This document shows positions 30,957 to 52,534 of a stretch of DNA of 64,000 nt, piece after piece. Position 1 is the stretch's first letter. Every line of letters begins with the position of its first letter. This stretch comes from Arcticibacter pallidicorallinus (GTDB taxonomy: Bacteria; Bacteroidota; Bacteroidia; Sphingobacteriales; Sphingobacteriaceae): contig NZ_PVTH01000005.1 of NCBI RefSeq assembly GCF_003002875.1, forward strand, positions 62,001-126,000, given 5' to 3'. A program made the translations under genes and the position numbers. Below the pieces are notes generated by a model. That model was not told where the DNA came from. It worked only from the letters and a program-made list of their open reading frames with translations, and did not search any database.

Positions 30957-31069
30957 CTTTATTTGTGCGTCTTGCAAATTTCGGTAATTCCAACTACATG
31001 CGGAACGTAAATTGCTTATGTATCGAATCTGAATAAAGTAAAACTTCTTAATATTGGTAATAACATAAT

Positions 31070-31936: not shown

Positions 31937-31956
31937 GGAGCTGTAGTGGGCTCCTT
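31935..31956 (+). terminator. Terminator of the DUF808 gene
   Basis: A perfect 7-bp stem AAGGAGC at 31935-31941 and GCTCCTT at 31950-31956 with an 8-nt loop overlaps the stop codon. It is a short hairpin with a weak T-tract. It helps set the left limit of the mobile element, since the element must start after it. Confidence 0.5.
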
Positions 31957-32010
31957 ACTTTCCAATACAGGAAGTAATCCATACTCATTTACAGATAGTT
32001 ACTAAAAAAA

Positions 32011-32031
32011 ACGTACAAACGGGTAACATAT
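32011..32031. repeat. Candidate left-end integrase arm site
   Basis: ACGTACAAA (32011-32019) followed by TAACATAT (32024-32031). The same two words, in the same order and orientation, occur at 50174-50182 and 50191-50198 near the integrase gene. This places the left end of the element just before this point. Confidence 0.4.
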
Positions 32032-32068
32032 CCTTATCTGAACGTTGTCAATTTCCTGCAAAAACAAT

Positions 32069-33295
32069 TCAAAACTTAAGCTCATTCATCACTAGTTCAT
32101 ATACAAAAGATGCACTGGTGTATGCAGCATAATCTTGAAAGGAATCGGCTTTTTCCTCATTAGCGAAATCGCAGGCGGATTTTATCGAAATTGCAATAGG
32201 TTTTGGTCTTGGCGAATGTGCAGCACTATAAAATACACCATATGCTTCCATTTCAAGCCCGATAAGTTTTCTGCTTTGTGCTCTTATTTTAGTAATTTCT
32301 GCATCCGATTGTATTACCGCAGGAACCGATGTCATTGGACCAACGTGCATATCCAAAATAGTTGATGGAGCATCGGCTTGATACTGCGAACGTATCTCAT
32401 CAAGATATTTTCGGTTTCTTTTAATCCTAAGTAAGAGTTCCTTGATATCTTCATTAAGAGTTTTGTGCTTTGGATCCGGCAGGAACAGAGTGCCTTTGTC
32501 TTTATCACCTTTTATTTTTCCGCTTGAGGCGTCCCATATTTCATCAGCGATCATTATGTCACCAAGATTGACTTCTCCCTTTATCCCTGCGGCAATCCCT
32601 GACATAATCAAATATTTTGGCTTGAAATGATGAATAAGTTTCATTGAAAGAGTGGACGAGGCACACATTCCCATTTGTGGAGTACATGCTGCTACAATTC
32701 TGATAGTCTCCTTTCCTTTCTCAAATTGCCCAATGTAATAACTTGTTTGATCATTCGTCAGAAGCTTTTCTTTCCATTTCCAATCTAACGCTAGAATCTT
32801 TTTTAACTCTTTATCCAATGCAGTAATAATAGCTACATCAAAGTCGTGTTCTAAAAGATTTAAGAATTGTATATCTTTTTTGGAATCTAAAAGATATTCA
32901 ATTTTATTTCTTAAAAGCTCTTTCCAAGATTCGACACCAGCCTGGTATTCTATCAAAAACCATAGATTTTTACTAAAATCTGAAGAATATTTCAAAATAT
33001 GTTCTGGTTTCCCAGTAACGCCTAAAATATGATAAGGGCATTTCTTGTTCGGGTCAAGTTTGATTTCGTTCAGAAAATCGACTCCATTATCTGGACTTGG
33101 TTCATCGCCAAAATCATTCGGAAGAACCAAGTCAAGTATTAAAAGGTCATACTTATATTCTTCTAATAGCCGTCTAGCATTATTTGTATCCGCAACGACA
33201 CTAATTTTATTATTTATCTCTGGGAATTCGTAAAGTACTTGTTTAATATCAGCAACTTTTGAGCTATCATCGTCAACTATTAAAATTGAAATCAT
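32069..33295 (-). CDS. dtcC: Detocs effector DtcC: receiver domain fused to nucleoside-phosphorylase-type ATP-cleaving domain
   Basis: A 408-residue fusion. Residues 1-145 are a response-regulator receiver with acidic residues Asp8/Asp9, phospho-acceptor Asp55 (LLILDLVLP) and Thr94 (GVTGK). Residues 150-408 are a PNP/UDP-phosphorylase domain: FDVAIITALDKELKKIL, the GIAAGI loop, the Glu348-Met349-Glu350 ribose-binding motif (LEMEAYG) and the catalytic Asp376 (SACDFAN). The combination is that of the Detocs effector, described in 2023 as an enzyme that cleaves ATP to adenine and ribose triphosphate once the system is activated by phage, causing abortive infection. The gene starts directly after dtcB stops. 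That this copy is active is inference. Confidence 0.85.
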   Translation of the reverse strand: MISILIVDDDSSKVADIKQVLYEFPEINNKISVVADTNNARRLLEEYKYDLLILDLVLPNDFGDEPSPDNGVDFLNEIKLDPNKKCPYHILGVTGKPEHILKYSSDFSKNLWFLIEYQAGVESWKELLRNKIEYLLDSKKDIQFLNLLEHDFDVAIITALDKELKKILALDWKWKEKLLTNDQTSYYIGQFEKGKETIRIVAACTPQMGMCASSTLSMKLIHHFKPKYLIMSGIAAGIKGEVNLGDIMIADEIWDASSGKIKGDKDKGTLFLPDPKHKTLNEDIKELLLRIKRNRKYLDEIRSQYQADAPSTILDMHVGPMTSVPAVIQSDAEITKIRAQSRKLIGLEMEAYGVFYSAAHSPRPKPIAISIKSACDFANEEKADSFQDYAAYTSASFVYELVMNELKF

Positions 33296-33736
33296 TTAAA
33301 GGTTATTAATTTTGAGTTTTAATTCTTTCTCCCAGCTAGTTTGAGAAGTATTATAATAAATACAACCAAGATAAATGCCTGGAAATTCAGTGAACAGAGC
33401 TTCATCAATCTTCGAAAGTGAAACACCGCCAAAATCTTCATATTGTGTTAGGATTATCGATGGAATTTCAATTTTCTCTCTTTCCATTTCTTGAAGTATA
33501 ATCTCACCACCACGATCTAATGTCTCGCCGCCATCATCAAAATCTGTAATATCAAACGTTGGTAGACTCATGTCCAAAAGTAATAAGTCATACTCATTTT
33601 GTATAATAGCCTCTAACCCACTTTGGAAAGACCTCCTTATTTCAACTTCTTCAGGCGAAATATCCAGTTCTGTAAGTAAAAACAATTCTACAACAGAAGA
33701 TTTATTTGGGTCATTTTCTACAATTAAAATTTTCAT
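33296..33736 (-). CDS. dtcB: Detocs stand-alone receiver DtcB
   Basis: A 146-residue single-domain response regulator with no output domain. It has an acidic pocket (Glu7, Asp9 in VENDP), phospho-acceptor Asp55 (LLLLDMSLP) and a conserved Thr (ILTQYED). The usual conserved Lys after the fifth strand is not apparent; IYYNTSQ lies there. In Detocs, DtcB is reported to drain phosphoryl groups from the kinase so that basal signal does not trigger the toxic effector. Its position between kinase and effector genes matches. It overlaps dtcA by 4 bp, which suggests translational coupling and tight stoichiometry. Confidence 0.85.
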   Translation of the reverse strand: MKILIVENDPNKSSVVELFLLTELDISPEEVEIRRSFQSGLEAIIQNEYDLLLLDMSLPTFDITDFDDGGETLDRGGEIILQEMEREKIEIPSIILTQYEDFGGVSLSKIDEALFTEFPGIYLGCIYYNTSQTSWEKELKLKINNL

Positions 33737-36700
33737 ACTAACAAGTTATTGACAGAAATTTTAATTTTTACTTTGAACGTATTTGCATGTAGATCAACAG
33801 TGATCTCATTAGACTTATCTCGGAAAACATTTTTTACAATGTTGTTTGCCTTATAGAAGCCAGATTTAACTTCTCCACGGGTTGCTGAGTAATTGTTCGA
33901 CAGTAGAGCGGTTTTAATTTCATCAATTTTCAACAGTAACGCTTCTTGTGAATCTAATTCTGCTAAGGAGTTTTTAAAGTCTATTGTTAGAATTTCTCCC
34001 TCTAAATGAAACCGTACTTTGGCAGCAACATTCAATAATTCATTAGCCTTAGAATAGTTGAATATGTTGGTTATAAAAATTTTTAATAGGTCTACAAAAT
34101 GAGTAAAATAAGCACCTTTGAAGAATGTTTGTGTTTCGAGGTTCTCATCAAAGTGGATTAGAAATGGGCTATTTATATTGTTTACGATTGTCAAGCTCGT
34201 GTTAAACGCATCTGCAAGAGTGAAATCAATTTCATCGTTTTTACTTCTATTAAACCAACGTATAACTGTATCCACGTCTGACTGTACGTTAGTTCGACAA
34301 TCTGCAATACTTTTCATTATCTTTCCTGGCTGAGAATCCTTTAGGATAATCATTAAATCAGACTCCAATTCGTCAAGATGGCTAATCAGTATTGCTTTTA
34401 CCTGTTGGTCTATAGCTGTCCTTATCCGTTGTAGATTTTGTGCAGTCATATCCCATAGTATATCAAAGATACTAGTAGTAAACTCATTAAAATCTGTAAT
34501 TAATTGAATTTTTGAAATAAATAAAGAATACAAATGATCTTTATGCCAATTAGGTATGTACATGTAATTGAACCAACCAGATTGCTGCGTCTTAGGATCC
34601 TCAGTTTTGATCTGGATATATCTATCTTTCAATTCCGTTATAACGGCATCAATATCTTGCGAGAACTGGGACATACGTAACTCAAACTTCTCCTTCACTT
34701 CCTTATCTAGCCCAAGTTGGGTGCTGGACCAGTATAAATTTGGCAAATAGTCGCCATCTTCGGAACTTCGTGATGTGACTAGATTCAGTTCTTGAAATTG
34801 TCTCCTTAATTGCCCGATGATAGTGCCATGTCGAATTCGTTGGCTTAAATAATAATCAAGACCGTAATAATTGCTGAATAAAAATTTGTCCCTAATTTGA
34901 ATAAATAATTGTATGAAGTGCTCAAAATGAATATCTGCCTTTCTAATGGATTTTTTGTATGTATCCCTATCAATATTACCAATTAATAGCTCCAAGAGAG
35001 CATCATAGCTCATACCAGTCGCATCTATCTTGTTTAGGTTCAATAATTCAGCAATACTTCTGAATCGATTAAATCCTTTATTTGTTTCGCCAAGCTCATG
35101 TCCAACTATTCCATTTTCATCCACATAAATCATACTCTGATCTATTTCCTTGATCCTTAGCTGTACGGTCAAGCGCTTTGTAAGTTCGGAAATCTCATTA
35201 TTATATTCTTCAATATTTGTAGTATCAATTTTAGATAAGCCTTGACATATTTCAATTCTCTCTTCAATTACCTGTAAGGAGTTCTTAAAAACTAAAGCTT
35301 TTCTCGATATAATCTTGGAGGTTGCGACAAACCTCAAAAAAAACATTTCTGCAGCTTCAGTTTTTTCAAGAATACTAAAAAGCTCTGTAGGTCTATTTGC
35401 TTTTACCGCTCTCATGAAAAGATCATAAGCAATAAATTTCGCATGAGTTTCACTTGCTGTGTTGTAAATGAAGACTGGAAGATTAATATTATCATGCCTT
35501 ACATTTCTAAAACGCTGACTTGTTATCACTTCGATCGCTTTACTACTATCAATTCTAGAAACTAGTGTTTCATTGGTAAGATAGGTATGAACATACAAGT
35601 CAATTGCGCAATCTATCTCAAAAAGAGCAACATAGCATTTAAATAAGCAGTCAACAACTAATTCGAAGAAAAATCCAGCATGGTTACTTTCTTTCAAGAT
35701 TTGTTCGAGACCATTTTTAGCTATTTCGAATTCACCTCGTACAAAATGTGTTATGGCTGTATAGTAATTAATCCTATACTCCGGAATTATACCTTTAAAT
35801 TTCTCCTTATCAATGGAACCATTAAGCATTCTAAAAAAATTGAAAGTTAATGACGTCTCGGTGTCAAGACAACCAAGAAAACTAGCTCGTTTTGCTTCGT
35901 TTTTAAATACGGTGTAGTGTAATGGATTTAAGCTCCTAGAATAGAAGTAACTCAGACTATTTTCCTTGAAATAGTCTATTTTCATATTTCTTTCAAGAAA
36001 AGAAACAATTTCTTTAGAAAAATCAAAATTTGAAATTGCATTTGCCTGAGTAAGCAGATCAACTAACGATTCATTTGGATCTCCTATTTTGCTTAAATAA
36101 GTGTAGGTCAACTTGGATATGATGTCCAAAAAACATGGGTTAATAGAAATACACTCAAGCTCGATATTTAAGTGAATATGAGATTTGACATATAATTCTA
36201 GTAGGCTAAAATCATTTGGCATTTCTAACAAGTAATTTTTAGAAAGTTCAATAGTCTCAATGTATCGTCCTTGAGTGTAGTGGTCGATGATCTTACATTT
36301 TTTGATTTCAATCAGTTGGGTAAAATCTTGTTCATCTCCTAGAAGCGCTATTATCTTTAATAATACTGGATCATTTATAAACTTACTGAGGAAGCGGCTG
36401 CGCTCAAGACAGAGAAGCTTCTCTTCCTCACTCCTCTCGTCAGTACAAAGCTGAACCAACACATCACGTACTAGAATATATCTGTCTAGTATGGAATAAT
36501 TCGAGTAGACTGTAAATAAATCCTCTAAATTTCCAAACGAATAATTCATTGGATTCAGACGATAATTAAAAAAATTGACGTATTGCTTCGGAACTGAGCT
36601 GAACGAGCTATTTAATGATGTTTCATAATTGAAATAAGATATGTCCTCCTCAACTTTGACACTGAAAAAGTGTAAAAGAAAATAGAATGATCTATCCTTA

Positions 36701-37176
36701 ACATTTATTGCTTGCGACGCATTTAAGAGCTTGAAGTTATGCTCTAAGCCCTTTTCAAACTGGACTTGTAAAAATTCGTTCTCTATTGACCAAAGGGAAT
36801 GACTTATCGAATTGCTTACTTTCAATAGAGTCTTGTTAGACTCGGAGTATTTACCTAAAAGAAACTGTTGTTCATAATCCTCTCGTAGACGTAGGAATTC
36901 ATTGACTTCTATCTGATTAAGCTTAATCTGTTGGCAATACCAATTTAGAGAGATTTTAAAACTGTAATCTGAATTTCTAACTGCCAAGCCGAGAGCCGCT
37001 TTGTCTTTCATTAAACTATTTCCTGTGACAAACGGAGTAAAAATTTTAGGCAATTGCTTTAAGACAGACTCTTGTTCTTCGAAGCTATATTTAACTTTGA
37101 GTTCTTCAAATAGCTGTTTCTTATTGATTTTAGGGTGAAATAATAGTTTTTTAAAATCTTGGTAGTTTTTTGGCAT
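33733..37176 (-). CDS. dtcA: Detocs sensor histidine kinase DtcA with large TPR-like N-terminus
   Basis: A 1147-residue protein. Residues 1-850 are almost all-helical with paired helices of TPR-like spacing, no membrane segment, and probably form the phage-sensing part. The C-terminus is a divergent histidine kinase: a dimerisation helix with His933 (ISHLDELESDL), an N-box-like helix at about 1019-1045 (FITNIFNYSK) and a G2-like segment KSGFYKANNIVKN near 1105-1115. Canonical DxGxG is not obvious, so the ATP-lid is divergent. It matches the Detocs sensor kinase in size, order and fold. It is the first gene of the three-gene operon; a 13-bp palindrome lies just upstream. Confidence 0.82.
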   Translation of the reverse strand: MPKNYQDFKKLLFHPKINKKQLFEELKVKYSFEEQESVLKQLPKIFTPFVTGNSLMKDKAALGLAVRNSDYSFKISLNWYCQQIKLNQIEVNEFLRLREDYEQQFLLGKYSESNKTLLKVSNSISHSLWSIENEFLQVQFEKGLEHNFKLLNASQAINVKDRSFYFLLHFFSVKVEEDISYFNYETSLNSSFSSVPKQYVNFFNYRLNPMNYSFGNLEDLFTVYSNYSILDRYILVRDVLVQLCTDERSEEEKLLCLERSRFLSKFINDPVLLKIIALLGDEQDFTQLIEIKKCKIIDHYTQGRYIETIELSKNYLLEMPNDFSLLELYVKSHIHLNIELECISINPCFLDIISKLTYTYLSKIGDPNESLVDLLTQANAISNFDFSKEIVSFLERNMKIDYFKENSLSYFYSRSLNPLHYTVFKNEAKRASFLGCLDTETSLTFNFFRMLNGSIDKEKFKGIIPEYRINYYTAITHFVRGEFEIAKNGLEQILKESNHAGFFFELVVDCLFKCYVALFEIDCAIDLYVHTYLTNETLVSRIDSSKAIEVITSQRFRNVRHDNINLPVFIYNTASETHAKFIAYDLFMRAVKANRPTELFSILEKTEAAEMFFLRFVATSKIISRKALVFKNSLQVIEERIEICQGLSKIDTTNIEEYNNEISELTKRLTVQLRIKEIDQSMIYVDENGIVGHELGETNKGFNRFRSIAELLNLNKIDATGMSYDALLELLIGNIDRDTYKKSIRKADIHFEHFIQLFIQIRDKFLFSNYYGLDYYLSQRIRHGTIIGQLRRQFQELNLVTSRSSEDGDYLPNLYWSSTQLGLDKEVKEKFELRMSQFSQDIDAVITELKDRYIQIKTEDPKTQQSGWFNYMYIPNWHKDHLYSLFISKIQLITDFNEFTTSIFDILWDMTAQNLQRIRTAIDQQVKAILISHLDELESDLMIILKDSQPGKIMKSIADCRTNVQSDVDTVIRWFNRSKNDEIDFTLADAFNTSLTIVNNINSPFLIHFDENLETQTFFKGAYFTHFVDLLKIFITNIFNYSKANELLNVAAKVRFHLEGEILTIDFKNSLAELDSQEALLLKIDEIKTALLSNNYSATRGEVKSGFYKANNIVKNVFRDKSNEITVDLHANTFKVKIKISVNNLLV

Positions 37177-37449: not shown

Positions 37450-40400
37450 TTATCTCCCTTTAATTAATTCAACTTCATCTTCTGTCAACTCGTAGAGTCG
37501 GATAACTAATTCGTCTATTTGGCATTCAAGATCGATGATGTCAGACTTCGGAGTTTCTTCTTTTTTTGCCAGAATACTATCAACTAAATTTTCTATTTCA
37601 TCAGTTATTTGGTTTCTGACATTTGGAAGCGCGAATTGCTGTATATCTCGAATCATAATTTGGGGAAACGTATCTGAGTCCGCAATCTGAAACTTCTTCC
37701 TAAAATACCAACCAATAAACTTTGAGTTTAAAATACCAAGTAATGCTTTGTAGCTTATTTTCGCCGAACCTGGTTTTAGCTTCAAGACAAATAACAATGT
37801 ATTGCAATAAGATGTATATGGTATGTAATTGGCAATTAAAGTTTTACCTGTTATTTTTCTTATCAGAATTTTTTCCCCATCAAAATTTTCTGGAATTCGT
37901 GGAGCAGCTAACCATGCACCATAGTGAATCCAATTATTGTTTTTCCAAAATAAAGAGTAGTGTCCGATATCTTTTCCGTCAAAAAATGGCAACCAATCTG
38001 GCGTTTTCCTTTCTTTTGATGTAAAAGGTTTGGTGTCCCGTGTTTCAGCTGTTTGTGCGGGTTTACCTTTTCCAACTTCATACGCTTTTATGCCTGAAAA
38101 CATTTCGGTAAAGCTCTCTACATGCGAAAATTCCTTATCAATCCTTGAAATGATTTTTAACTCATTTGAGTTACTTTGGACATTGAAACTATTTGTGTCA
38201 TACCAAATTTTACTGCTAATTTCAAAGCTACGAATTGGATTATTTAAATTTTGCAGTTTATTTTTCTTATGAAAAATATTTACCAGAACGTCCTGCTTAT
38301 TGTAATCTCCATTTGAAATATTTTTTTGAAAGAATAGTAAAATTGTATCAACGGCAGCATCGTCAAACACATACGAAGGCAACAAATCCACTTCACAAAT
38401 TTTTGTATTTTTCAACACATATTTTCTTATTGTTTCTGTAAATCCAAGATTTAACATCGTATCAGGAATTATAAAACTAAAATGCCCCGATATATTTAAG
38501 ATTTTAATCGCCCTTTCAACAAACAAAACATAGCTTTCTCCTCGAAGGTTGAAAGTGTCAAATTCATTTTCAAAAAACATTCCGTTCTCTTTATTGAAAT
38601 TCACACCATACGGTGGATTCCCTATCACCACATCAAATCCTACAAACTCACCCTCACCATTCAATACCTCCGGAAACTCAAAGCGCCATTCAAAAGCGTT
38701 TTCGAAAATCTTATTAGTTTTGATCTCCTCAATTTCGGTTTCCAGTTTTTTTGTATCAACAGTGAGTAGGTCTACTTTTTTATTCCACTCAGCAGCTTCC
38801 TTTTTGTTCTTTTCAAAAAGCTGAACTTGATTAGTCATCTGAAACAACTCGCCCGATAGCTTTCTTAGCTTCTTTACTTTTGGATCAATTAGAGAAATCT
38901 CACTCCGGAAATCGGATTTGATATCGGCTATCAAGCGTTCCATTTCTTTTTTCTGATCCTTGCTTTTCGCATTCCTGTAGGTGTCTACGGCGATTCGGTA
39001 ACTGTCAATCGTCCATTTACTTTTTTTCAGTGCCTGTCTGAGATCAGAATCGAGAGCAAATCGGCTCACTAATGAATTACCACATTTGATATTGATATCG
39101 ATATTAGGAAGTGTTTCCAATTCAGCCGCGTTTTTATAGTAAGCGTTCTTCAATAATTCTATCCACAAACGTAAACGACATATCTTGACTGAATTCTGGT
39201 TAATATCTACGCCAAAGAGGCAATTTTCGATAATGTTTTGCTTTTCATGGAATAGCGTTTCCTGTATGCGCTGGCTTTCCTTGTTCGTAGGATTGTATTC
39301 AAAAAGATCTCCTTCTTCATCAGTTACGATTAGTTCGTCGTTCACTACTGTAACCTGGTATTCTTTCAAACGTTTGCCACTTCGGTCCTGCAAGATTTTC
39401 AAATCGTTCTTTACAGAAATCATTTCATTAAGTGCGGACACTAAGAAGTGACCAGAACCCACGGCGGGGTCACAAATCTTAATGCTATTTACAATAATGT
39501 TTGCTTCGTTCCGATCTTCTATTTTATTGTATAGCTCATTGAAGTTGACGCAGTTCCAATTCTTAGTCTCATTGAATTTTTGAACAATCGCCTTACGGAT
39601 GGTTTCACGGCACATATACATTGTGACGAATCCAGGGGTAAAGAAAGAGCCATCTTTATAACCGTTTATTTTTTCAAAAATAAGTCCTAGGACCGAGGCA
39701 TTGACAAGAGTTTTGTTATCCTCTTGTATTTCTTCGGAACCATCGCTGCTAAAATCATAGGCATTTAGAAACTCAAACAAATACTCTAAAGTAGACAAAC
39801 TGCCTGTCTGTTTTTTGCCCTGCTTGTCTTTCAATACGGTAGTGGAAATTATTGGGATGGTTTTATCATCTTTCAGGTTACTGATGAAAAGAGTAACCTG
39901 CTCCATTTCCGTAGGTTCGAAAAGCGAGCTATTTAAATAAGGTACTTTTTCATACAGCTGCTTTATATCGTTATTTCTTTCTTCAAATCGCCGCGCGAGT
40001 ACCTGGAAAAACAAAATATTTAGATCATCATATTCCTTTATACGGTCCTGATTTAGAAACGAGTACGACTTATCGCCTTTGTGATAAGAAATGAGCTGCG
40101 CTTCTAACAGTTTGAGAAATAAAACTCGGTTTATCCAGGTGATTGAAAGTTCAAGTGCAACGTTGAAAAGTCGCTCCTGATGGGTACTTCCATATTGGCT
40201 TGGTCTGTCTAATCGACTAATTTTATCCAGACTGTCCAGCTGAATGATTGCATCCTCCAGGAGACTGCCAGAATTTCGTTGTCCTTCTTTGTTCCGTCCT
40301 ATAATCTTTTTGCCGCCTTCTTTCGATTCTGATAACCCAATAATATGCAACAATTCACTGTAAAAGCGTTTGTCTAAGGTATTGCTATCGTTGGTAAAGG

Positions 40401-41115
40401 GAAGTTTTAAAAGATGTTCAGGGGATAGGAGTTTGAATAAAGAGATGAGCTTGTTATCATCTTTTTGGTCGGCATTCCTGAGCGGTTTTTCATAGTCGCG
40501 GATGTCGAAGTAAGTAAACTCAATTTCTTGACTGATACAGCCAATAAACGGGTCGGCAATTTCTTTATAGAAAAAGTCGGTAGTCTTCCCCGCTAATCTT
40601 CCACTTTCAAAATCATCAAATTGCTTTACCAAGCCTTTGTTTTGGGCAAAAAGCTTTTCGAATATGTTGGCATCAAAAACAAACCATTCATTAATATTAG
40701 TAACAACCAGGTGCTTTACTTCCAGATTTTTATGGGTGATTCGCTCGCGTAGATAATAAAGTATCAGTTCGTGAAATGCTTTGGTATTTATGTTGTCTAC
40801 CCTCAGCATTTCTGATTTGTTAATGGGGCTTTTCGCCTCAATAATAACACCTACAGCACTCTTTGCTGTCTTATCGTTATGGATCACCAGATCGTTTCTA
40901 TGCTTTGTGTTTATATAGAAGCGGGTGTTATAATACGTATCGTGAAGAAATTTGGATATGATGTTTTTATGAAATTCTTCCGATTCCTTGATATCGATCT
41001 GATTTATCAGGCTGATCAGATTTAATTTAAAGGTTTCAATTTGCTCTCGTTGAGGTTTTACTTTTCGGAATGCTAAATTTAATGCTTTACTAGGTTTCAG
41101 TTTGGTTAATCTCAT
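37450..41115 (-). CDS. Eco57I-like single-chain (type IIG) restriction-modification enzyme
   Basis: A 1221-residue enzyme combining cleavage and N6-adenine methylation. The N-terminus has a PD-(D/E)xK nuclease pattern with Asp75 and Glu93-x-Lys95 (IIEAKSP). The methyltransferase core contains the SAM-binding motif DPAVGSGHFLVSA near residue 550 and the catalytic NPPYG near 832. The C-terminal 300 residues are a target-recognition region (TAETRDTKPF and SYKALLGILNSKF-type segments). No separate methylase or specificity subunit is next to it, as expected for type IIG. The recognition sequence is unknown. It is flanked by the AbiE pair and Detocs. Confidence 0.88.
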   Translation of the reverse strand: MRLTKLKPSKALNLAFRKVKPQREQIETFKLNLISLINQIDIKESEEFHKNIISKFLHDTYYNTRFYINTKHRNDLVIHNDKTAKSAVGVIIEAKSPINKSEMLRVDNINTKAFHELILYYLRERITHKNLEVKHLVVTNINEWFVFDANIFEKLFAQNKGLVKQFDDFESGRLAGKTTDFFYKEIADPFIGCISQEIEFTYFDIRDYEKPLRNADQKDDNKLISLFKLLSPEHLLKLPFTNDSNTLDKRFYSELLHIIGLSESKEGGKKIIGRNKEGQRNSGSLLEDAIIQLDSLDKISRLDRPSQYGSTHQERLFNVALELSITWINRVLFLKLLEAQLISYHKGDKSYSFLNQDRIKEYDDLNILFFQVLARRFEERNNDIKQLYEKVPYLNSSLFEPTEMEQVTLFISNLKDDKTIPIISTTVLKDKQGKKQTGSLSTLEYLFEFLNAYDFSSDGSEEIQEDNKTLVNASVLGLIFEKINGYKDGSFFTPGFVTMYMCRETIRKAIVQKFNETKNWNCVNFNELYNKIEDRNEANIIVNSIKICDPAVGSGHFLVSALNEMISVKNDLKILQDRSGKRLKEYQVTVVNDELIVTDEEGDLFEYNPTNKESQRIQETLFHEKQNIIENCLFGVDINQNSVKICRLRLWIELLKNAYYKNAAELETLPNIDINIKCGNSLVSRFALDSDLRQALKKSKWTIDSYRIAVDTYRNAKSKDQKKEMERLIADIKSDFRSEISLIDPKVKKLRKLSGELFQMTNQVQLFEKNKKEAAEWNKKVDLLTVDTKKLETEIEEIKTNKIFENAFEWRFEFPEVLNGEGEFVGFDVVIGNPPYGVNFNKENGMFFENEFDTFNLRGESYVLFVERAIKILNISGHFSFIIPDTMLNLGFTETIRKYVLKNTKICEVDLLPSYVFDDAAVDTILLFFQKNISNGDYNKQDVLVNIFHKKNKLQNLNNPIRSFEISSKIWYDTNSFNVQSNSNELKIISRIDKEFSHVESFTEMFSGIKAYEVGKGKPAQTAETRDTKPFTSKERKTPDWLPFFDGKDIGHYSLFWKNNNWIHYGAWLAAPRIPENFDGEKILIRKITGKTLIANYIPYTSYCNTLLFVLKLKPGSAKISYKALLGILNSKFIGWYFRKKFQIADSDTFPQIMIRDIQQFALPNVRNQITDEIENLVDSILAKKEETPKSDIIDLECQIDELVIRLYELTEDEVELIKGR

Positions 41116-41172
41116 TAAGATATCGTTTATTTTTAAAGATAGTAGTTTTCATTAGGTTTCTTTTTAGTTACC

Positions 41173-42162
41173 TCAAAGTTCGATCTTCCATTCGATTCTT
41201 TCTATTCGGTTTTTTAAGAAAAGCATACTACCTTTTATCGATTCGATTTTTGGTAATTGGCCATACACCAATGGCCGAAATTCTTCAATATAAACGGAAG
41301 ACAACTCGTTGAAGACCTCATCAATTTCGCTGAAGAAATAGGCCTCATTCGGGTGATGAATAAGCCATTGGTTATTATTCCTGAAGCTTCTAACATCATC
41401 CTGGGCTACTTTTAGCAGCATATCGTCAAAAGCTGAAGAATTGACAAAAGAACAAAACTCTTCCAATTGAAGCAACTGATGAAGATCGTAAGTATGTCTT
41501 ACCTTTTTCTTGAGTGCTACAAGAGGCTCTCGTTCATATGAAAAACGAACTAAGCTCATTACCTTTTCACAAATTGTACGAATAGGTTCCAGTACACGAA
41601 CTTGGAATTCCTTCATATCGTACTCTTCAATTAAATCGAATTGCTGCGCACTTTCCATCATCGCCCCAATAAAGGAATTGATATTACTCGTGGTGTATGG
41701 CTCATAATAGCCTAACCATGACGATTCTAAAATGATTGAATCACGTACTTGCCCGTAATCACCCAGAAATTGTTTGCTATAAGTATGAGCAGTCTTTCTG
41801 TTCATACCCATTTTTCTCGTGACATTGTCAATTGCCACTTCTGGCAATGTGCCAGCAACGAGTAAGCTAATATCTTTTAATTTCCTTTTTAGTTTGTTGT
41901 CCGTCTCACCTTTGCGCCTTAGTACAACTAGATCAATGTCCTCAGAAAACCGTTCTATTTCGCCGTAACACTTCGATAAAGCAGTCCCGCCTTTAAAAAC
42001 AACGTCCTCTCCTATTTCATGGGAAAAGATTTGAAACAGGGCGTAGGTAACCCAGTAGTCTTTTTCAACATAAATATCAAGAATGGACAATCGTTGAGAC
42101 GTAAATCTGACTGCTTGTTCAAACAATCTTTTATTTTCATGCAATCTCATAGTAGGTTCCAT
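41173..42162 (-). CDS. AbiEii/AbiGii-type nucleotidyltransferase toxin
   Basis: A 329-residue protein with the nucleotidyltransferase signature VFKGGTALSKCYGEIERFSEDIDLVVL (Gly58-Gly59-Thr60, with Asp75 and Asp77 as metal-binding acids). This is the AbiEii type IV toxin family, which can add nucleotides to tRNA acceptor ends and stop growth. An EKDYW motif at 34-38 precedes it, as is typical. It overlaps its cognate antitoxin gene by 16 bp, so the two are translated together. The role is abortive infection or element maintenance. Confidence 0.9.
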   Translation of the reverse strand: MEPTMRLHENKRLFEQAVRFTSQRLSILDIYVEKDYWVTYALFQIFSHEIGEDVVFKGGTALSKCYGEIERFSEDIDLVVLRRKGETDNKLKRKLKDISLLVAGTLPEVAIDNVTRKMGMNRKTAHTYSKQFLGDYGQVRDSIILESSWLGYYEPYTTSNINSFIGAMMESAQQFDLIEEYDMKEFQVRVLEPIRTICEKVMSLVRFSYEREPLVALKKKVRHTYDLHQLLQLEEFCSFVNSSAFDDMLLKVAQDDVRSFRNNNQWLIHHPNEAYFFSEIDEVFNELSSVYIEEFRPLVYGQLPKIESIKGSMLFLKNRIERIEWKIEL

Positions 42163-42872
42163 TTATAAGGATCACCAGTCTCTCTTTTTAACTCTTTAAA
42201 ATTATACTTAGTAATAGGATTCAATGTCCGTAAGAGTGTGTTAGCTTCGTCATCAAATCCCAAATCGTCAATTATTGATCCTAATAAGGCTCTTGTCGAG
42301 GGTGGATACTTCATCGACAGTCGAACTGTTTTATGGATCTCTTCATCCATAAAATCCTTAAAAATTGACCGAATTCGCGTATAGCTGAACGCAATGGATG
42401 CACCTGGTATCTTACGGATGTTTCTGATCGCATCTAAGATTTGTAACAGTGGAATATTGTCTCTGGTTATGGTGTTTTTTTGTCTGATGAATGAAATGGT
42501 ATATTGATCTCTTTTGAATGTATGTCGAACGGAATTTGCTCCGATTTGAATTATATTAGCAACTTGGGTCGTCAATTTAAGCTCGTTATAATTACTATAA
42601 CCCGTCAAATAACCAGTAATCTTTCCGTTTTCTTCTAATAAGTCCTTCACAATTTCTTTTTGCGAAGGCTTCAGCTGTCCAAAAGGCGTTTCTTCCGGCT
42701 TAAAATATTTCCCTTTGGTTAGTTTTTTAATATTGCCCGAAGCAACCATTCTGTTTAAGGCTTTGATAACTGCTTCTTTCTTATTCACCTCCGTAGTAAA
42801 GTCCTTATAGGTGAAAACGAAGCCTCGAGGAAGCCTATCTATCTTAAACGATATATAATCAGTTACTTTCAT
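42147..42872 (-). CDS. AbiEi-like antitoxin (DUF6088 family)
   Basis: A 241-residue protein. The N-terminal 70 residues are a winged helix-turn-helix domain (LPRGFVFTYKDFTTEVNKKEAVIKAL...), followed by the DUF6088 core, including KGKYFKPEETPFGQ and GYLTGYSNYNELKL. DUF6088 proteins are paired with AbiEii toxins and repress their own promoter. A 56-bp perfect palindrome starts 16 bp upstream of the start codon. The gene ends inside the toxin gene. Confidence 0.88.
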   Translation of the reverse strand: MKVTDYISFKIDRLPRGFVFTYKDFTTEVNKKEAVIKALNRMVASGNIKKLTKGKYFKPEETPFGQLKPSQKEIVKDLLEENGKITGYLTGYSNYNELKLTTQVANIIQIGANSVRHTFKRDQYTISFIRQKNTITRDNIPLLQILDAIRNIRKIPGASIAFSYTRIRSIFKDFMDEEIHKTVRLSMKYPPSTRALLGSIIDDLGFDDEANTLLRTLNPITKYNFKELKRETGDPYKWNLL

Positions 42873-42888
42873 GTGAAATTAAAAATCA

Positions 42889-42944: not shown

Positions 42945-42959
42945 ATTCCCATACAGGCT

Positions 42960-43685: not shown

Positions 43686-43700
43686 ATAAATGCATGAGAA

Positions 43701-44876
43701 CTAGCGTTTACGTCGTCTTTTTCTCTTTAGTTCGTCATCGTCTATGTCGTAAGCAGATGCACCACCAACAAAGCCGCTAATATTGCTAATAGCGGCACCA
43801 GCAACGTCAAGAAACTGATCACGATTAGCCTTTTCATCTTCAGATATTCTCTCTTCGTTTCCAAAAGTTCCTGAAGTATTGCCGCTTGGCTCTGGTTCGT
43901 CTCCATTCCTTTCAATTCGCTGATCGCCTCGTGAATAATCTGTTGATTCTGCATGATGGTCTTTTGTCCGTTCCCAAGAACCATCATCCCTTTTTTGATG
44001 TCGTTCGTCTCCTTTAGAAAGCAAGTCCGCAAATCGTACTCGTGTTCGACTGTTTGCTTCGTAAATTGCCTTGCTGTCTGTGCTTTGTTCATATTGAATT
44101 CTATTTGATATGTTATTCCATTTATACATATTGCCGAGCTTTTGGCCTTTTGCCATAAAACCGTTGTCCATAACGTAGGTTATCCCAGAAATTCTGTCTG
44201 TGGTTGTTGATTGGTTAAAAAGCAAGTAAACTCCTAGTTCCTGACATTTTCGAATAAAACTTGCTACAGAGTCGGACTGATTCAAGGCTAACTTTACTTT
44301 TTCTTGCATCAGCATTCTATCCGAAGGCTTTCCGGTTCGTTGTACCATCTCCAATTCATCCTTGTTTGGCGCACGATCCTGGGCTTCATCAGACGAGCGT
44401 ACAACGGCTAAGCCGTATTTTTGCTCTATACGCCGACAAAGTGCCTCACTGTGTTTGTAGTTATTGGAATCAGAAACTACAATGGCTTTGCCTTCATTAA
44501 ATCCGATTCGTGTCAATAGTAAATGAACGTGTACATGTTCGTGATCCTCACCATCATTGTGTCTCCAAAGAGCGAAGTAGTTTGCGTCGGGATCGAAGCC
44601 CATTCCCTGCATATAATCTTTAGCAATCGAAACAATACGTTTATTATCTAAAACATCCTCCTTGGCAAAACTCAAAGCCACGTGATACCCATCATTCTTT
44701 ACATTCGGTTTAAGCTGCCTGAGCAACTCCACATCCGCCATGATATCACTTCGATCATATTTAAGGAAATTGTGGGCAAGCACTTCTGCTTGTTCTTTAG
44801 GATCAAGTAGTTCGGTTTTCTTGTGGTTGTAATCAAATGCCGTTTTAAAGCTGTGTACTTTTTGAATAGCGATCAT
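43701..44876 (-). CDS. Relaxase / mobilization nuclease
   Basis: A 391-residue relaxase. The N-terminal 250 residues are the nuclease domain, with the metal-binding histidines His112/114/116/118 (DHEHVHVHLLLTR) and an N-terminal Tyr near 16 as the probable nicking residue. It cleaves one strand at oriT and stays attached to the transferred end. The C-terminal 130 residues are low-complexity and polar (Asp/Glu/Ser-rich, then KRKRRRKR). The overlapping frame of that tail encodes a second protein (43742-44092). The gene overlaps mobC by 4 bp. Confidence 0.9.
   Translation of the reverse strand: MIAIQKVHSFKTAFDYNHKKTELLDPKEQAEVLAHNFLKYDRSDIMADVELLRQLKPNVKNDGYHVALSFAKEDVLDNKRIVSIAKDYMQGMGFDPDANYFALWRHNDGEDHEHVHVHLLLTRIGFNEGKAIVVSDSNNYKHSEALCRRIEQKYGLAVVRSSDEAQDRAPNKDELEMVQRTGKPSDRMLMQEKVKLALNQSDSVASFIRKCQELGVYLLFNQSTTTDRISGITYVMDNGFMAKGQKLGNMYKWNNISNRIQYEQSTDSKAIYEANSRTRVRFADLLSKGDERHQKRDDGSWERTKDHHAESTDYSRGDQRIERNGDEPEPSGNTSGTFGNEERISEDEKANRDQFLDVAGAAISNISGFVGGASAYDIDDDELKRKRRRKR
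43742..44092 (-). CDS. Overlapping gene inside the relaxase tail: coiled-coil/TM protein
   Basis: A 116-residue frame starting at an ATG (44090-44092), wholly inside the relaxase gene but in another reading frame. It encodes a polar, coiled-coil-prone stretch (residues 30-85, KTIMQNQQIIHEAISELKG) and a C-terminal membrane helix (about 89-113, LIVISFLTLLVPLLAIL). A random alternate frame rarely gives this kind of ordered protein. ColE1 mbeB/mbeD and RSF1010 mobB are established examples of mobilization genes nested in relaxase genes, and MobB is membrane-associated. I propose the same role here: anchoring the relaxosome at the membrane. Confidence 0.6.
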   Translation of the reverse strand: MNKAQTARQFTKQTVEHEYDLRTCFLKETNDIKKGMMVLGNGQKTIMQNQQIIHEAISELKGMETNQSQAAILQELLETKREYLKMKRLIVISFLTLLVPLLAILAALLVVHLLTT

Positions 44877-45288: not shown

Positions 45289-46149
45289 TCACATAGGTTT
45301 CCCTAGCAAATAATCATTTAGATCCTTGTAGCCTTTATATTTTCTTCGGTAATCAAAAAAGGAAATTTCATTGGCTTTTGAATAATTCTCTATCAGTGAA
45401 GTGGCTCTATCGCCTGCAAGGTCATTGTCGAGAAAGCAAATGATCCGGTTATTATTTTTTAGGAGATGATAAATACCAGCAAGATTGTGAACAGAATTAA
45501 GAACGCAAAGGTCATGTAGTCCGACCTGCTTGGGATAAAGCATAATAAAGCTTAAAAGATCCATTATTCCTTCTGTCACTATAATACTCATTCCGATATT
45601 GTGGGAATAAAAAGTCACACCCTGTTTTGTGGCACATTTAAAGTTTTGAGAACTGATATTATATCCATCATTAATGTTTTTGGTTGCTATGCCGCGGTAA
45701 ACTATACCGTTCATTTCGTAAGATATGCCAGATACATAATCACATGCCTTGCTAAATTCAATACCTCGGCTTTCTAGGTAGGTACAAGCTCCTGGACAAT
45801 TTCTCAATGGTTCAGTTTTAATAATTTTAATTTTGCTTGCAATCGGCAGCTTGTTATTTCCTTCAAGCTGGTGAAAAGAAAAAATACCTTTGTTAAAATC
45901 AGCAACAATTTTAGATACGGTATAATCTGGATTTAATTTCAAAATTAAATCTATCAGTGTACCACCCTCATTGATCCCAAAATCAACCCACAGATTTGAG
46001 CCTATTGAAACTTTAAAACTAGGCGTCTTTTCTGCAGGTCTTATTGGGGAATAATACATGTAGTAGCCATTCATTTTTCGTTCTGGTTTGATGGACATAG
46101 TGTATAGGTAATCCACTATGCTGCTTTTATTTATTTCTCGGGATGTCAT
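45289..46149 (-). CDS. Toprim-domain primase of the mobile element
   Basis: A 286-residue protein with an N-terminal domain of the CHC2 primase type (MYYSPIRPAEKTPSFKVSI). The zinc-binding Cys/His residues are not in their usual positions, so the finger looks degenerate. A central segment contains CPGACTYLESRGI. The Toprim domain has Glu193 (VTEGIMD) and Asp241/Asp243 (FLDNDLAGDRA). Bacteroidota mobilizable elements often carry such a primase for priming transferred DNA or replicating the circular form. The gene follows VapE after a repeat-rich gap. Confidence 0.85.
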   Translation of the reverse strand: MTSREINKSSIVDYLYTMSIKPERKMNGYYMYYSPIRPAEKTPSFKVSIGSNLWVDFGINEGGTLIDLILKLNPDYTVSKIVADFNKGIFSFHQLEGNNKLPIASKIKIIKTEPLRNCPGACTYLESRGIEFSKACDYVSGISYEMNGIVYRGIATKNINDGYNISSQNFKCATKQGVTFYSHNIGMSIIVTEGIMDLLSFIMLYPKQVGLHDLCVLNSVHNLAGIYHLLKNNNRIICFLDNDLAGDRATSLIENYSKANEISFFDYRRKYKGYKDLNDYLLGKPM

Positions 46150-46201
46150 AGCGTATGTTTACTTGTTATCTATTTTGATTCTTGTGAAAAGTCAAAAAAC
46201 C

Positions 46202-46325
46202 ACCTACTACACCTACTACTTACTACATATTTGTAGTGACTTATAGTAAGTAAAAATTCATAGGCTTACTACATTATAACAACTTGTTATACAAGTATTT
46301 ACAGTTAGCTGTAGTAAGTAGTAAG
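46202..46325. repeat. Iteron-like repeats between the VapE and primase genes
   Basis: ACCTACTAC is repeated in tandem at 46202-46210 and 46211-46219, followed by TTACTAC, with inverted copies (GTAGTGA, GTAGTAAG) and a final GTAGTAAGTAGTAAG at 46311-46325. A near-perfect palindrome TATAACAA-C-TTGTTATA is at 46275-46291. The gap is very AT-rich. It could be an origin or a regulatory region for the primase. Confidence 0.5.
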
Positions 46326-47507
46326 AGGATTGTATTTAATTAGGTAACCTTTTACAGGATATTTCTGATTTTCATGACCTCTTCTTTGCACTTGTTCGAA
46401 ACCAAGGATCTTTAGGGCCTTTCCAACTTCAACCGGATTGATTTTTAACTTCCCTTCAATGTTGGTTGTTAAATGCTCAACCAAATCAGTAGCAGTATAA
46501 AATTGTTGGTAATCATCACTTGATCCAGGCGAATAATATTTTTGTATCAATTCCATCTCTACAGTAAAGGTGGTATGCTGGTTATTTGAAATCTCATTTT
46601 CCTTAATTTCAGCTGGTGTCATTTCATATTTAAAACCAGTACGGTATAGGTAATAAGCCTGAGCCCAAACAGCATTGATGTCGACTTCTGTTTTATAATT
46701 CCAATTGATTTTTTTTATATTAAAACATAGCCACCTGACACTGCCTGATTCATCATTTAGAAATTCAGTTCTGTTGGTTGATCCAATGATTGAGGCTCTT
46801 CGCGGCTCCATTTTAGGCTTCCTATCATATGGGTGCCTAACCTTGATATATGATTTACTCATCAAAGTTTTTTGTGCATTGATTTCTGTTTTAGAGAGGG
46901 TAGAGAGTTCATCTTGAATGATTATAAAGTTTTGGCAAAGAGCGATGAGGCTGTCTTTATCAACCGCTATATTTTCTGCCTGATAATTATAAAGTTCATC
47001 TGGTATTAGAAAACGAGTTAACGTCGATTTCCCGCTATTTTGTTCTTCTTGTACAAGTGTCAGTGCTTGCTTATTGAAATAATCATCAATCAATGCGCAA
47101 ACTACACACCTAACAAGCCATTTCTTAAATTGAATAGAGAACCTTTCCTGATTCTCTACTTCTATATACTGCGAAAATTTTTGTATATGATCTTCTTTGA
47201 ATTCCTTAAATCTCCTTTCTAAGCTTTTGAAATACTCTTCGAATGGGTTTACTTTAACGATGTAATCCGAGCTTAGGAATGTATTTATTTCGCTGACAGT
47301 TGTTCTTTTGCCAGCCTGCCTTACTTCTATGTATAGAGTATTAGGATTTACAGGCAGATAAGTATTCTGATTTTTTAGACTTATCATAACCTCGTTCAAA
47401 ATGATGTTATTTAAGAAATCATATTTTTCAAATAAAAACTTGATCATTTCAATGGTGCTACTTTTACTCTCTGATTCGCCTAAATTATAGCATGGTCGTG
47501 TATTCAT
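46305..47507 (-). CDS. VapE/VirE-family ATPase (SF3-helicase-like)
   Basis: A 400-residue protein of the VirE/VapE (virulence-associated E) family. The Walker A motif is EEQNSGKSTLTRFL with Gly159-Lys160-Ser161, and the sensor-like segment is GSTNRTEFLNDESGSVRWL. These proteins resemble SF3 helicases and accompany the primase in phage-inducible islands and mobilizable elements, where they probably act in replication initiation. It sits upstream of the primase on the same strand. Confidence 0.85.
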   Translation of the reverse strand: MNTRPCYNLGESESKSSTIEMIKFLFEKYDFLNNIILNEVMISLKNQNTYLPVNPNTLYIEVRQAGKRTTVSEINTFLSSDYIVKVNPFEEYFKSLERRFKEFKEDHIQKFSQYIEVENQERFSIQFKKWLVRCVVCALIDDYFNKQALTLVQEEQNSGKSTLTRFLIPDELYNYQAENIAVDKDSLIALCQNFIIIQDELSTLSKTEINAQKTLMSKSYIKVRHPYDRKPKMEPRRASIIGSTNRTEFLNDESGSVRWLCFNIKKINWNYKTEVDINAVWAQAYYLYRTGFKYEMTPAEIKENEISNNQHTTFTVEMELIQKYYSPGSSDDYQQFYTATDLVEHLTTNIEGKLKINPVEVGKALKILGFEQVQRRGHENQKYPVKGYLIKYNPLTTYYS

Positions 47508-47617: not shown

Positions 47618-47950
47618 TTATTTTTTCAAGAGTTTTCGTTCCTCCATTTGTTTCTGAAGTTTAGGAGTAAGCTTCTTGTTATTGGCTAGCCATTCAAGAA
47701 TCTCTTCTCTTTTGTAAATCAATGGCGTTTCAGAAGAATATATAGGTATTGAACCTCTAGAGTTATAAGAATAAATAGTGGTAAGCTCCACACGAGCCAA
47801 TTCAGCCACTTCGGTGGTATCCATGAATTCAGATACTGTGGGATTGAAGTTTACAGCCTCCTTTACATGATGAAAGTTTTGCTGCATATTAAGTAATATC
47901 TGCTCGATATGACTCAATCTCTGGTCTAGGGTAATAAAGGGATTTTCCAT
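47618..47950 (-). CDS. Excisionase-like helix-turn-helix protein
   Basis: About 110 residues from the ATG at 47948-47950; the frame opens further upstream without a good start. A MerR/excisionase-type HTH (FMDTTEVAELARVELTTIYSYNSRG, about residues 40-65) is followed by PLIYKREEILEWL, as in the HTH_17 family. Such proteins act as recombination directionality factors or regulators of the integrase and replication genes. Two 15-bp direct repeats lie about 50 bp upstream. Confidence 0.8.
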   Translation of the reverse strand: MENPFITLDQRLSHIEQILLNMQQNFHHVKEAVNFNPTVSEFMDTTEVAELARVELTTIYSYNSRGSIPIYSSETPLIYKREEILEWLANNKKLTPKLQKQMEERKLLKK

Positions 47951-48001
47951 ATTGCAAAAAATTTGTTTCTGCAATACTATAGCCCTCACAGCTCGGAAAA
48001 G

Positions 48002-48979: not shown

Positions 48980-50113
48980 CTAGAATTTAATTTTATTAGC
49001 AGCATCAACCTTCTTTGAATTAATCACCTTAGCATAAATTTCCGTTGTCTTAAGATGCTGATGTCCAAGCATTTTTGATACAGTATAAATATCCTCTCCA
49101 GAAGAAAGAAGCAATGTAGCATTAGTATGTCGAAAGCAATGAAACGTAATATCTTTATTTATTCCAGCCCTTAAAATCCAATTTCTGATTTTATTATTAT
49201 TATGTGCCGAATATTTTAACCCTTGAAAAACCTTTGCGTTTTGTTCTTTATTTGGTTCACCAAGTTCCAAAAATGCATCTTTACTAATTGGTAAAGTCTC
49301 ATAGGTTTTAACCTTTTTTTGAAAATACCTAATAAAATAACCCAATTCTTCCGTATGATGAATTTGCCCCCATTCTAATGCAACACAGCTCGACCACCGC
49401 AATCCCGTTCGGATGGAAAACATACCTGCTTTAAAAAGTAATTCATTGTCCAAAGGAGTGTTCTTTAGTCTTATTACCTCTTCAATAGTCAAAAACTCAC
49501 GGAAGGTTTCGGCTTGCGGAAACGACTTTATGTTCCGTAATGGGTTATCCTTAATAACCTTATCTTCAAATGCTTGGTTAATACTCGCTCTAAACTTATT
49601 AAAATAACTATATTTTGAATTGGCCGATAGTTTTGATCCTGCTGATTTGATAGTGGTAGTTGTGTCCAAATACTCCTTAAAATCTTTACAAAATCGTTCA
49701 TTCACCTGAGAGGCCAAGCAGCTTCCATTCGTGAAACGTACTACATAATTATAAGTCGAAAGCCAGTTATCATAATTTCCTTTTGATGTGTAACGCTTTT
49801 TTACGATACTTTTGAAATACTGCAGAAAATCTAAGTCTTTATTTGAGATGGAGGGCATACCGAGTCTTTCACTAAGAAACTCAAGCTGGTATTCATTTTC
49901 TATCTGCCTAGCTTTGATCATTGTAAATTTATTATGCTCTCGTTCCATCTTGTTTGCTGGTTTTTCGAAGACATATAAATCCATAAACTTCCGCCTAGTA
50001 TCCTTCTTTTTCTTTTCATCGTAAATAGCCGGATAAAAATCCAGGTATAAACTAGTCCTTCCCGACTTGTTCTTTTGTTCCCTTAAAGTAACGCGTATAG
50101 ATTTATCTGTCAT
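48980..50113 (-). CDS. Tyrosine recombinase integrase
   Basis: About 377 residues from the ATG at 50111-50113 (a TTG at 50122 also opens the frame). The N-terminal arm-binding part (residues 1-90) is followed by a core-binding SAM-like domain (about 95-190) and the catalytic domain. The catalytic residues are Arg239 (TGLRWSS), His325 and Arg328 (HCFRHT), His351 (LGHQHLKTTEIY) and Tyr360. It catalyses integration and excision of the element. It stands at the right end next to mnmE, transcribed away from it. Confidence 0.92.
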   Translation of the reverse strand: MTDKSIRVTLREQKNKSGRTSLYLDFYPAIYDEKKKKDTRRKFMDLYVFEKPANKMEREHNKFTMIKARQIENEYQLEFLSERLGMPSISNKDLDFLQYFKSIVKKRYTSKGNYDNWLSTYNYVVRFTNGSCLASQVNERFCKDFKEYLDTTTTIKSAGSKLSANSKYSYFNKFRASINQAFEDKVIKDNPLRNIKSFPQAETFREFLTIEEVIRLKNTPLDNELLFKAGMFSIRTGLRWSSCVALEWGQIHHTEELGYFIRYFQKKVKTYETLPISKDAFLELGEPNKEQNAKVFQGLKYSAHNNNKIRNWILRAGINKDITFHCFRHTNATLLLSSGEDIYTVSKMLGHQHLKTTEIYAKVINSKKVDAANKIKF

Positions 50114-50144
50114 AATAATCAACTCCTATTGTATTTGTATGTTT

Positions 50145-51663: not shown

Positions 51664-51673
51664 GATGGTGCTA

Positions 51674-52534
51674 TTAGAACTTTTCTTCAATGCCCAACCC
51701 GAAAAGGGCAAAGTCGTACCGTACAGGATCCATCGGATCGAACTCCAGCAGATGCTCTGTCAATTCAACTGCTGTCTGCCAATCGGTTTGTTTCCTGGTG
51801 ATTAAACCCAGCTTTCTGGCTACACGATCGACGTGCAGGTCGCATGGGCAAATAAGTTGCGAGGGACTGATCCTGTCCCAGAGTCCAAAGTCTACTCCTT
51901 TGTCGTCTTTCCTGACCATCCAGCGCAGGAACATATTTAAACGTTTACAGGTCGACTTCTGCGATGGGGAGCTAACATGCTTGATGGTACGCCCTGGAAA
52001 ATCGGGAAGGCTGAAGAAGTACCTTCTGAAGTGATTGAGTATGACTTCGACCCGGTGCTCCGTCGTATTCAGTGCCATCATGGCGCGGACTGCCTGCTGA
52101 TCTTCATTCTGCTCTACAGGATGCTCGCTGAACTCAAAAAACCGACTGGTGCGCGATGGTAAAAAAGCGTCTTCCAGAGAGTCGAAGCGGGCATAATGCT
52201 GTCTGAAGAAACTCACGAAGTATAAGAGATCTGTATCGTTGAACGTGCGGTGCTTAAAGCCGAGTAATGACTTCAGGTCTTCATCCTGATGACCGGTGAT
52301 AAACGCATAGGGAGTGCCCGACATACGCTCTATCAGCTCGTTGCACTTATTGATGATCGTCTTACGCTGCCCCCAGGCGAGTATCGCCGCGAAGAAGCCC
52401 ATGATCTCGATGTCCTGCCTGACGCTGAACTGATGAGGTATCACAATGGGGTCGTTTTCAATGAATGAAGGCTGATTATACTGATCAGCCTTCATATCCA
52501 GAAACGACTTTAAGTCTTGTCTGTTCAATTCCAC
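51674..52534 (-). CDS. TIGR02757 family protein
   Basis: A 286-residue protein from a GTG start. Family signatures include DPIVIPHQFSVRQDIEIMGFFAAILAWGQRKTIINKC and, near the end, a VDFGLWDRISPSQLICPCDLHVDRVARKLGL segment. The C-terminal region resembles HhH/DNA-glycosylase-like folds, but no activity is established. It is 10 bp from the mnmE start on the same strand, so they are probably co-transcribed. The gene is common in Bacteroidota. Confidence 0.88.
   Translation of the reverse strand: MELNRQDLKSFLDMKADQYNQPSFIENDPIVIPHQFSVRQDIEIMGFFAAILAWGQRKTIINKCNELIERMSGTPYAFITGHQDEDLKSLLGFKHRTFNDTDLLYFVSFFRQHYARFDSLEDAFLPSRTSRFFEFSEHPVEQNEDQQAVRAMMALNTTEHRVEVILNHFRRYFFSLPDFPGRTIKHVSSPSQKSTCKRLNMFLRWMVRKDDKGVDFGLWDRISPSQLICPCDLHVDRVARKLGLITRKQTDWQTAVELTEHLLEFDPMDPVRYDFALFGLGIEEKF

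Follow-up and report, generated by a model that had tools for sequence, protein, structure and literature searches.

A three-gene operon at positions 32069 to 37176 of a 64,000-nucleotide stretch of Arcticibacter pallidicorallinus DNA (assembly GCF_003002875.1, contig NZ_PVTH01000005.1, positions 62,001 to 126,000; hereafter, the window) is, with a probability of roughly 90%, a complete defensive two-component operon of the Detocs type that forms part of the cargo of an integrative mobilizable element. As such it is a good new representative of a known system and not a new system. The passages on Detocs in PMC11249213 and PMC11728103 describe three genes, which encode a histidine-kinase protein (DtcA), a receiver acting as a buffer (DtcB), and a response regulator with an ATP-cleaving purine nucleoside phosphorylase (PNP) domain (DtcC). 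According to the same passages and to part of PMC10952713, the PNP domain of DtcC splits ATP into adenine and ribose-5'-triphosphate.

By analogy, the operon probably stops phages by destroying the ATP of the infected cell. The helical solenoid of DtcA would sense infection, and the histidine-kinase ATPase domain of the same protein would supply a phosphoryl group. DtcB, if it has the buffer role given in the published descriptions, would absorb stray phosphate and hold the system off. A signal above this buffer would lead to phosphorylation of DtcC at Asp55 and switch on its PNP domain, which would then break ATP down to adenine and ribose-5'-triphosphate. With its ATP drained, the infected cell could no longer support phage multiplication. 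The phosphotransfer path, ATP as the substrate and phage as the trigger are what we infer from the likeness to the described system.

Operon layout and gene order

33733..37176, minus strand: DtcA-like sensor kinase, 1147 aa (ORF; PDC-M60A, 283 bits; AlphaFold2; conservation)
33296..33736, minus strand: DtcB-like stand-alone receiver, 146 aa (PDC-M60B, 121 bits; Asp55 in 85/85)
32069..33295, minus strand: DtcC-like effector, 408 aa, receiver plus PNP-superfamily nucleosidase (PDC-M60C, 393 bits; Pfam)

The three open reading frames (ORFs) start with ATG and are all open within a single contig. Those of DtcA and DtcB share 4 bp (ATGA, 33733–33736), and those of DtcB and DtcC abut with zero gap, TAA being followed directly by ATG. 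These coordinates agree exactly with the original prediction, made from the letters of the DNA, which had described three tightly packed minus-strand genes of these lengths, overlap and spacing. It had also proposed a profile search, and the PADLOC PDC-M60 A, B and C models matched the corresponding three genes with the scores listed above. The source genome (4.12 Mb, 23 contigs) contained a single full-length match to the effector model. Neither promoter-like sites (30 vs 23.3 expected, sd 4.7) nor terminator-like sites (3 vs 2.3 expected, sd 1.5) were in clear excess, and the window contained no Rfam family at gathering score and no tRNA.

The order of the genes was compared among 100 starting loci, which comprised the window, three loci from genomes of the family (L021–L023), six of 74 plasmid records, three E. 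coli loci, 80 genome_contigs loci (the best 80 of 212) and seven viral_contigs loci. One of them, L021, was a duplicate of L028 and was removed. The A-B-C order named in the original prediction was complete in 85 of the 99 loci counted, with DtcA lengths of 1004–1215 aa. The remaining 14 lacked at least one complete gene (L034, L048, L050, L062, L063, L078, L093, L100, L101, L102, L104, L107, L112 and L114), at least L034, L048 and L112 because they begin at the end of a contig. The 85 complete operons fell into 81 clusters at 90% and 73 at 70% DtcC identity, and A-B-C loci came from Bacteroidota, Pseudomonadota, Bacillota and others. Invariance is given below for these 85 operons.

The DtcC effector

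The receiver part of DtcC runs to about residue 147, with the Asp55 codon at 33131–33133, and the PNP part covers about residues 150–408. Response_reg and PNP_UDP_1 were both matched above the Pfam cut-offs, and the AlphaFold2 model (mean predicted local distance difference test score, pLDDT, 95.1) folds as a receiver plus a nucleosidase resembling 5'-methylthioadenosine/S-adenosylhomocysteine (MTA/SAH) nucleosidase (MTAN), in keeping with the receiver–PNP fusion that had been described. The structure alignments held 67 sequences for DtcC and 42 for DtcA, window included, of 74 eligible. For residues 153–406 the best fold match was an MTAN (VIA-align Z 29.7, 2.4 Å, 223 residues), and each of the 50 nearest solved folds listed was either an MTA/SAH nucleosidase or futalosine hydrolase, a related enzyme, which is what membership of the superfamily would lead one to expect.

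Glu163, Lys260, Glu350, Lys372, Asp376 and Lys382 are all present in the window protein, and together with Asp55, Gly233, Gly245 and Met349 they are invariant in 85/85 sequences. Glu163, Glu350 and Asp376 align on MTAN catalytic positions, the second alignment segment being weak; we take these positions to be Glu12, Glu174 and Asp197 of E. coli MTAN, with the catalytic roles that these residues have there. E12Q and D197N mutant entries occur among the nearest solved MTAN structures. The original prediction had listed Asp55 as an intact phospho-acceptor and Asp376 and "Glu348/350" as intact catalytic residues. Asp55, Asp376 and Glu350 stand; Glu348 does not, since position 348 is not fixed (it is Asp in L031) and only Glu350 of the pair is therefore the catalytic equivalent, and Glu163 had been overlooked.

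The active-site set is common to the E. coli and plasmid members shown. As a whole it is absent from the three other PNP-family proteins of the genome, of which one has Lys372, another has Lys382 and none has Lys260; the alignment of one of these proteins, L115, is poor at its end, and L009 and L014 are not in the PNP residue table. By this pattern DtcC groups with Detocs-type effectors and not with the other three proteins of the genome, so that the proviso made at the outset, that the site might align with housekeeping enzymes, does not refute the Detocs reading. The PADLOC PN-superfamily effector model gave DtcC 60 bits.

Two loci, L104 (Nostoc bin) and L107 (Eremiobacterota bin), encode PNP proteins of 521 and 519 aa with a Detocs-like PNP active site. 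Their N-terminal parts are longer and of no identified family, and no receiver gene was found just upstream.

The DtcB receiver and the DtcA sensor kinase

DtcB matched Pfam Response_reg at E 2e-4, which is under the cut-off. Its Asp55 (codon 33572–33574) is invariant, as are Lys12, Gly77 and Trp135, and with the PDC-M60B match this bears out its description as a stand-alone receiver. No conserved Lys was present near the end of β5 in either receiver, DtcB or DtcC, in the 85 sequences, β5 of DtcB being placed by alignment.

The AlphaFold2 model of DtcA (mean pLDDT 84.5) shows a helical, tetratricopeptide repeat (TPR)-like solenoid at about residues 1–650, followed by a helical middle, a hairpin resembling a dimerization and histidine phosphotransfer (DHp) domain at 896–974, built of two long helices (896–944 and 951–974), and an alpha/beta GHKL-type ATPase domain at about 984–1144. 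The last of these matched the catalytic domain of the histidine kinase ThkA (VIA-align Z 15.1, 2.7 Å, 136 residues) and also dehydrogenase kinases; solenoid and ATPase domain together fit the TPR-like histidine kinase of the original prediction. The VIA-align rows cover mainly residues 895–1145, so that about 650–890, including His783, was barely compared. A profile of the 42 DtcAs searched against PDB found TPR proteins at E 1.1e-9 and, weakly, histidine kinases at E 0.05. Among the 42, TPR_19 was matched in four and HATPase_c_5 in four, the window protein being in neither group.

Apart from the start Met, the residues invariant in DtcA are Asp231, Arg782, His783, Asn1037 and Gly1106. His783 (codon 34828–34830) is the sole conserved His and lies within an S-x-R-x-R-H-G motif. 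The DHp-like hairpin does not include it, and the ATP-site Asn follows about 250 residues later; between His783 and residue 1040, no column reaches a His frequency of 20% among the 85 DtcAs. The acceptor His of kinases normally sits in the helical hairpin preceding the ATPase domain. Since the sole conserved His lies outside that hairpin, phosphotransfer may not follow the textbook route. We offer only tentatively the idea that the Detocs kinase family works without textbook histidine-kinase chemistry, either through a new acceptor site or with His783 as a switch or binding site in a non-canonical relay, and we would put it at clearly less than even odds.

Distribution and selection

With DtcC as the query, tblastn matched 74 plasmid records, in 60 of which a single place spans 80% or more of the query, and no phage record. 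At E≤1e-30, matches were found in 10 of 301 genomes of the family, the source genome included, only five of which span receiver and PNP, and in two of 395 genomes of the phylum, again including the source genome, the other match being to the PNP part only. Several matches stand outside the locus count: G641, in which the effector has another partner and there is no DtcB; G680, which has a 243-aa PNP-only frame next to which neither a receiver gene nor a kinase gene was seen; and G213, G466, G595, G616 and G631, which match in the PNP part only.

The DtcC tree was built with FastTree and carries local support values only. It placed the window with Pedobacter frigidisoli (local support 100), and this pair next to one Flavobacteriaceae row and one Saprospiraceae row (support 99). 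The tree is without L068 (identical to L066), L111 (93% to L110), L036 and L051 (64% and 77% to their nearest rows); leaving out the last two was unjustified, yet as far as can be told the placement of the window is untouched. Between the window and P. frigidisoli, the proportion of nonsynonymous differences (pN) was 0.213 for DtcA, 0.110 for DtcB and 0.126 for DtcC. The synonymous proportion (pS) was 0.79–0.88, which is saturated and beyond correction. Judged by these values, all three genes are under long purifying selection. The original prediction had considered this copy functional and phage-responsive, and the intact catalytic residues and the purifying selection speak for that presumed function.

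A probable mobile element at the 3' end of mnmE

The operon is probably cargo of an integrative mobilizable element of low G+C content at the mnmE 3' end, together with a type IIG enzyme and an AbiEi/AbiEii pair. The features in and beside this element, other than the operon itself, are as follows.

50302..51711, minus strand: mnmE (trmE), insertion target (Pfam)
50302..50316, minus strand: probable proximal attachment (att) site, last 15 bases of mnmE
48980..50122, minus strand: tyrosine integrase (Arm-DNA-bind_5, Phage_int_SAM_5 and Phage_integrase domain matches), adjoining mnmE
47618..47989: helix-turn-helix protein
45289..47507, minus strand: Toprim-like protein (45289–46149) and VapE-like protein (46305–47507)
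43701..44876, minus strand: MobA/VirD2-type relaxase (Pfam PF03432, E 2e-26)
41173..42872, minus strand: AbiEii toxin and AbiEi/DUF6088 antitoxin pair, cargo (domain and PADLOC searches)
37450..41115, minus strand: type IIG restriction-modification enzyme with N-terminal DUF7149 and DUF7814, then Eco57I and TaqI_C, beside the operon
31955..31969, minus strand: probable distal att site, 13/15 bases equal to the mnmE 3' end

The element is about 18.4 kb long (31955–50316) and has 35.3% G+C, compared with 43.0% and 47.0% in its flanks. Two of its ORFs, at 43231–43695 and 48074–48976, had no Pfam match at E≤0.001. The location in a mobile element given in the original prediction is upheld by the integrase, the relaxase, the drop in G+C and the imperfect att-like repeat at mnmE.

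The left boundary is less certain than the rest. A comparison of 50100–50500 with 31000–32300 found no shared exact words of 10 bases or more and no 20-base words with four or fewer mismatches. The att-like repeat was spotted by eye and then checked with a degenerate pattern written after both ends had been seen. The sighting was helped by the fact that other elements target trmE/mnmE. As the pattern was written afterwards, the weight of the repeat is partly post hoc. In six genomes of the genus, searched with mnmE and the 288-aa flanking gene (31070–31936) as probes, no empty mnmE site was found; mnmE was matched in five of the six and the flanking gene in three (the source genome included), not beside mnmE in the other two. 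The boundary therefore rests on the 13/15 repeat and the step in G+C.

Four sibling genomes have conserved genes upstream of mnmE and differ on its downstream side. An integrase related to that of the window lies downstream of mnmE in G411 (40% identity) and G441 (32%), and none was found in the stretch examined in G428 and G451. The site carries Gabija GajA/GajB and a type IIG enzyme in G428 (L130) and a PDC-M62A gene in G411 (L131). From these differing defence genes, the mnmE 3' end seems to be an insertion site for defence cargo in the genus. A literature search found no paper on mnmE-targeting integrative elements in Bacteroidetes.

Weighing the Detocs assignment

Several observations weigh against the assignment. 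No PADLOC 2.0.0 match carries the name Detocs, so that the name rests on architecture, by which PDC-M60 would be the same thing as Detocs. The window DtcA has no kinase or TPR match in Pfam, and no column with a conserved His was found in the DHp-like hairpin of the 85 sequences. DtcB has Asn8 where 83 of 85 sequences have Asp, a feature of only the window and P. frigidisoli. The PNP-effector genes are not always in A-B-C order, five of the 10 family matches being PNP-only and G641 having another partner. Finally, the closest solved enzymes to DtcC act on MTA/SAH, and ATP would be the substrate by analogy.

This last point would fit an MTAN-like enzyme under phosphorelay control that regulates nucleoside/SAH metabolism and has no part in defence: among solved proteins, MTA/SAH nucleosidases are those nearest to the PNP part in both structure and sequence. 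We consider such a housekeeping role highly improbable. The NCBIfam MTAN model gave DtcC 65 bits, below its cut-off of 169, compared with 393 bits for PDC-M60C, and Lys260, Lys372 and Lys382 never occur together in the three other PNP-family proteins of the genome. In addition, the spread of the gene is patchy (10/301 family genomes, five with both parts, and 74 plasmid records), and it lies among defence genes on a mobile element. As the identity of DtcC itself, a housekeeping MTAN was rejected because of the profile scores and the active-site pattern.

It is also very unlikely that the operon is of the Detocs type and inactive or impaired here, for example by DtcB Asn8 weakening phosphate uptake. 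The rarity of Asn8 (2/85) would favour such a defect. On the other side, every frame is open in one contig, and Asn8 is shared with P. frigidisoli at 67–84% protein identity with synonymous sites saturated; because it was kept over that distance, Asn8 has been tolerated through long purifying selection. A complete Detocs-type operon on the mobilizable element thus remains the preferred reading.

Comparison with known systems and significance

The window operon is like the PNP-effector type of Detocs in its gene order, in its solenoid plus histidine-kinase protein, stand-alone receiver and receiver–PNP fusion, in the invariant receiver Asp of B and C, and in the invariant PNP catalytic residues. 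It differs in DtcB Asn8 and in lying on a Bacteroidota integrative mobilizable element, the likeness being drawn from architecture and published descriptions. DtcC is only 31–37% identical to the E. coli and plasmid members (n=9). Three E. coli operons examined lie inside topB, near ssrA and near hipAB, and none at the published yjcB-ssb site; because they sit at other sites, there is no accession-level identity with a published, named Detocs. The PDC-M60 models match both the window genes and two E. coli operons, whereas PDC-M60 is a candidate name with no function attached in the PADLOC library.

The closest operon compared, that of P. frigidisoli RP-3-11 (L028), shares order and spacing and is 79% (C), 84% (B) and 67% (A) identical. 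Its surroundings differ: none of 27 other window genes tested was matched in the 15 kb around it, so that only 3/30 genes are shared. MTAN shares the PNP-superfamily fold and the three aligned catalytic positions described above, whereas DtcC has a fused receiver, the conserved Lys260, Lys372 and Lys382, and a score far under the MTAN cut-off. Cap17 PNP effectors, tabulated in part of PMC10952713 for CBASS, pAgo, DRT8 and NLR-like systems, belong to the same nucleosidase superfamily, and DtcC differs from them by its N-terminal receiver. Among the papers listed by a literature search on the combination of PNP and two-component genes, none concerned such an operon.

With the present operon, PNP-type Detocs gains a well-formed member on a Sphingobacteriaceae integrative mobilizable element. 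The location also suggests a way in which such operons spread, as cargo inserted at the mnmE 3' end, a site at which other defence genes are found in two siblings. The 85-member residue table provides targets for point mutation (DtcA His783 and Asn1037; DtcB Asp55; DtcC Glu163, Lys260, Lys372 and Lys382), which bear on which His is the phospho-acceptor and on how the PNP domain distinguishes ATP from MTA/SAH. What goes beyond routine here is this table, together with the mnmE site and the unusual position of the conserved His.

Other PNP-effector loci

In G641 (L025, contig G641:C2, 5769–11721), a receiver-PNP gene of 414 aa (PDC-M60C, 130 bits) follows, one base apart, a gene for a 1568-aa protein. 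This protein had no match in Pfam (E≤0.01) or PADLOC (E≤1e-10), none at E≤1e-20 in 300 other family genomes or 395 phylum genomes, two samples that overlap, and none in plasmid records at 1e-5. The pair is perhaps a two-gene relative of Detocs.

Archaeal genomes are said, in a passage of PMC11249213, to be without Detocs/PNP. One complete operon (L045) lies on a contig labelled Candidatus Nanoarchaeia archaeon, and its DtcC groups with an Arcobacter one (support 99), so that either a binning error or transfer would account for it. Two complete Detocs-type operons that differ from each other (L032 and L105) occur in Parabacteroides gordonii MS-1, on two supercontigs.

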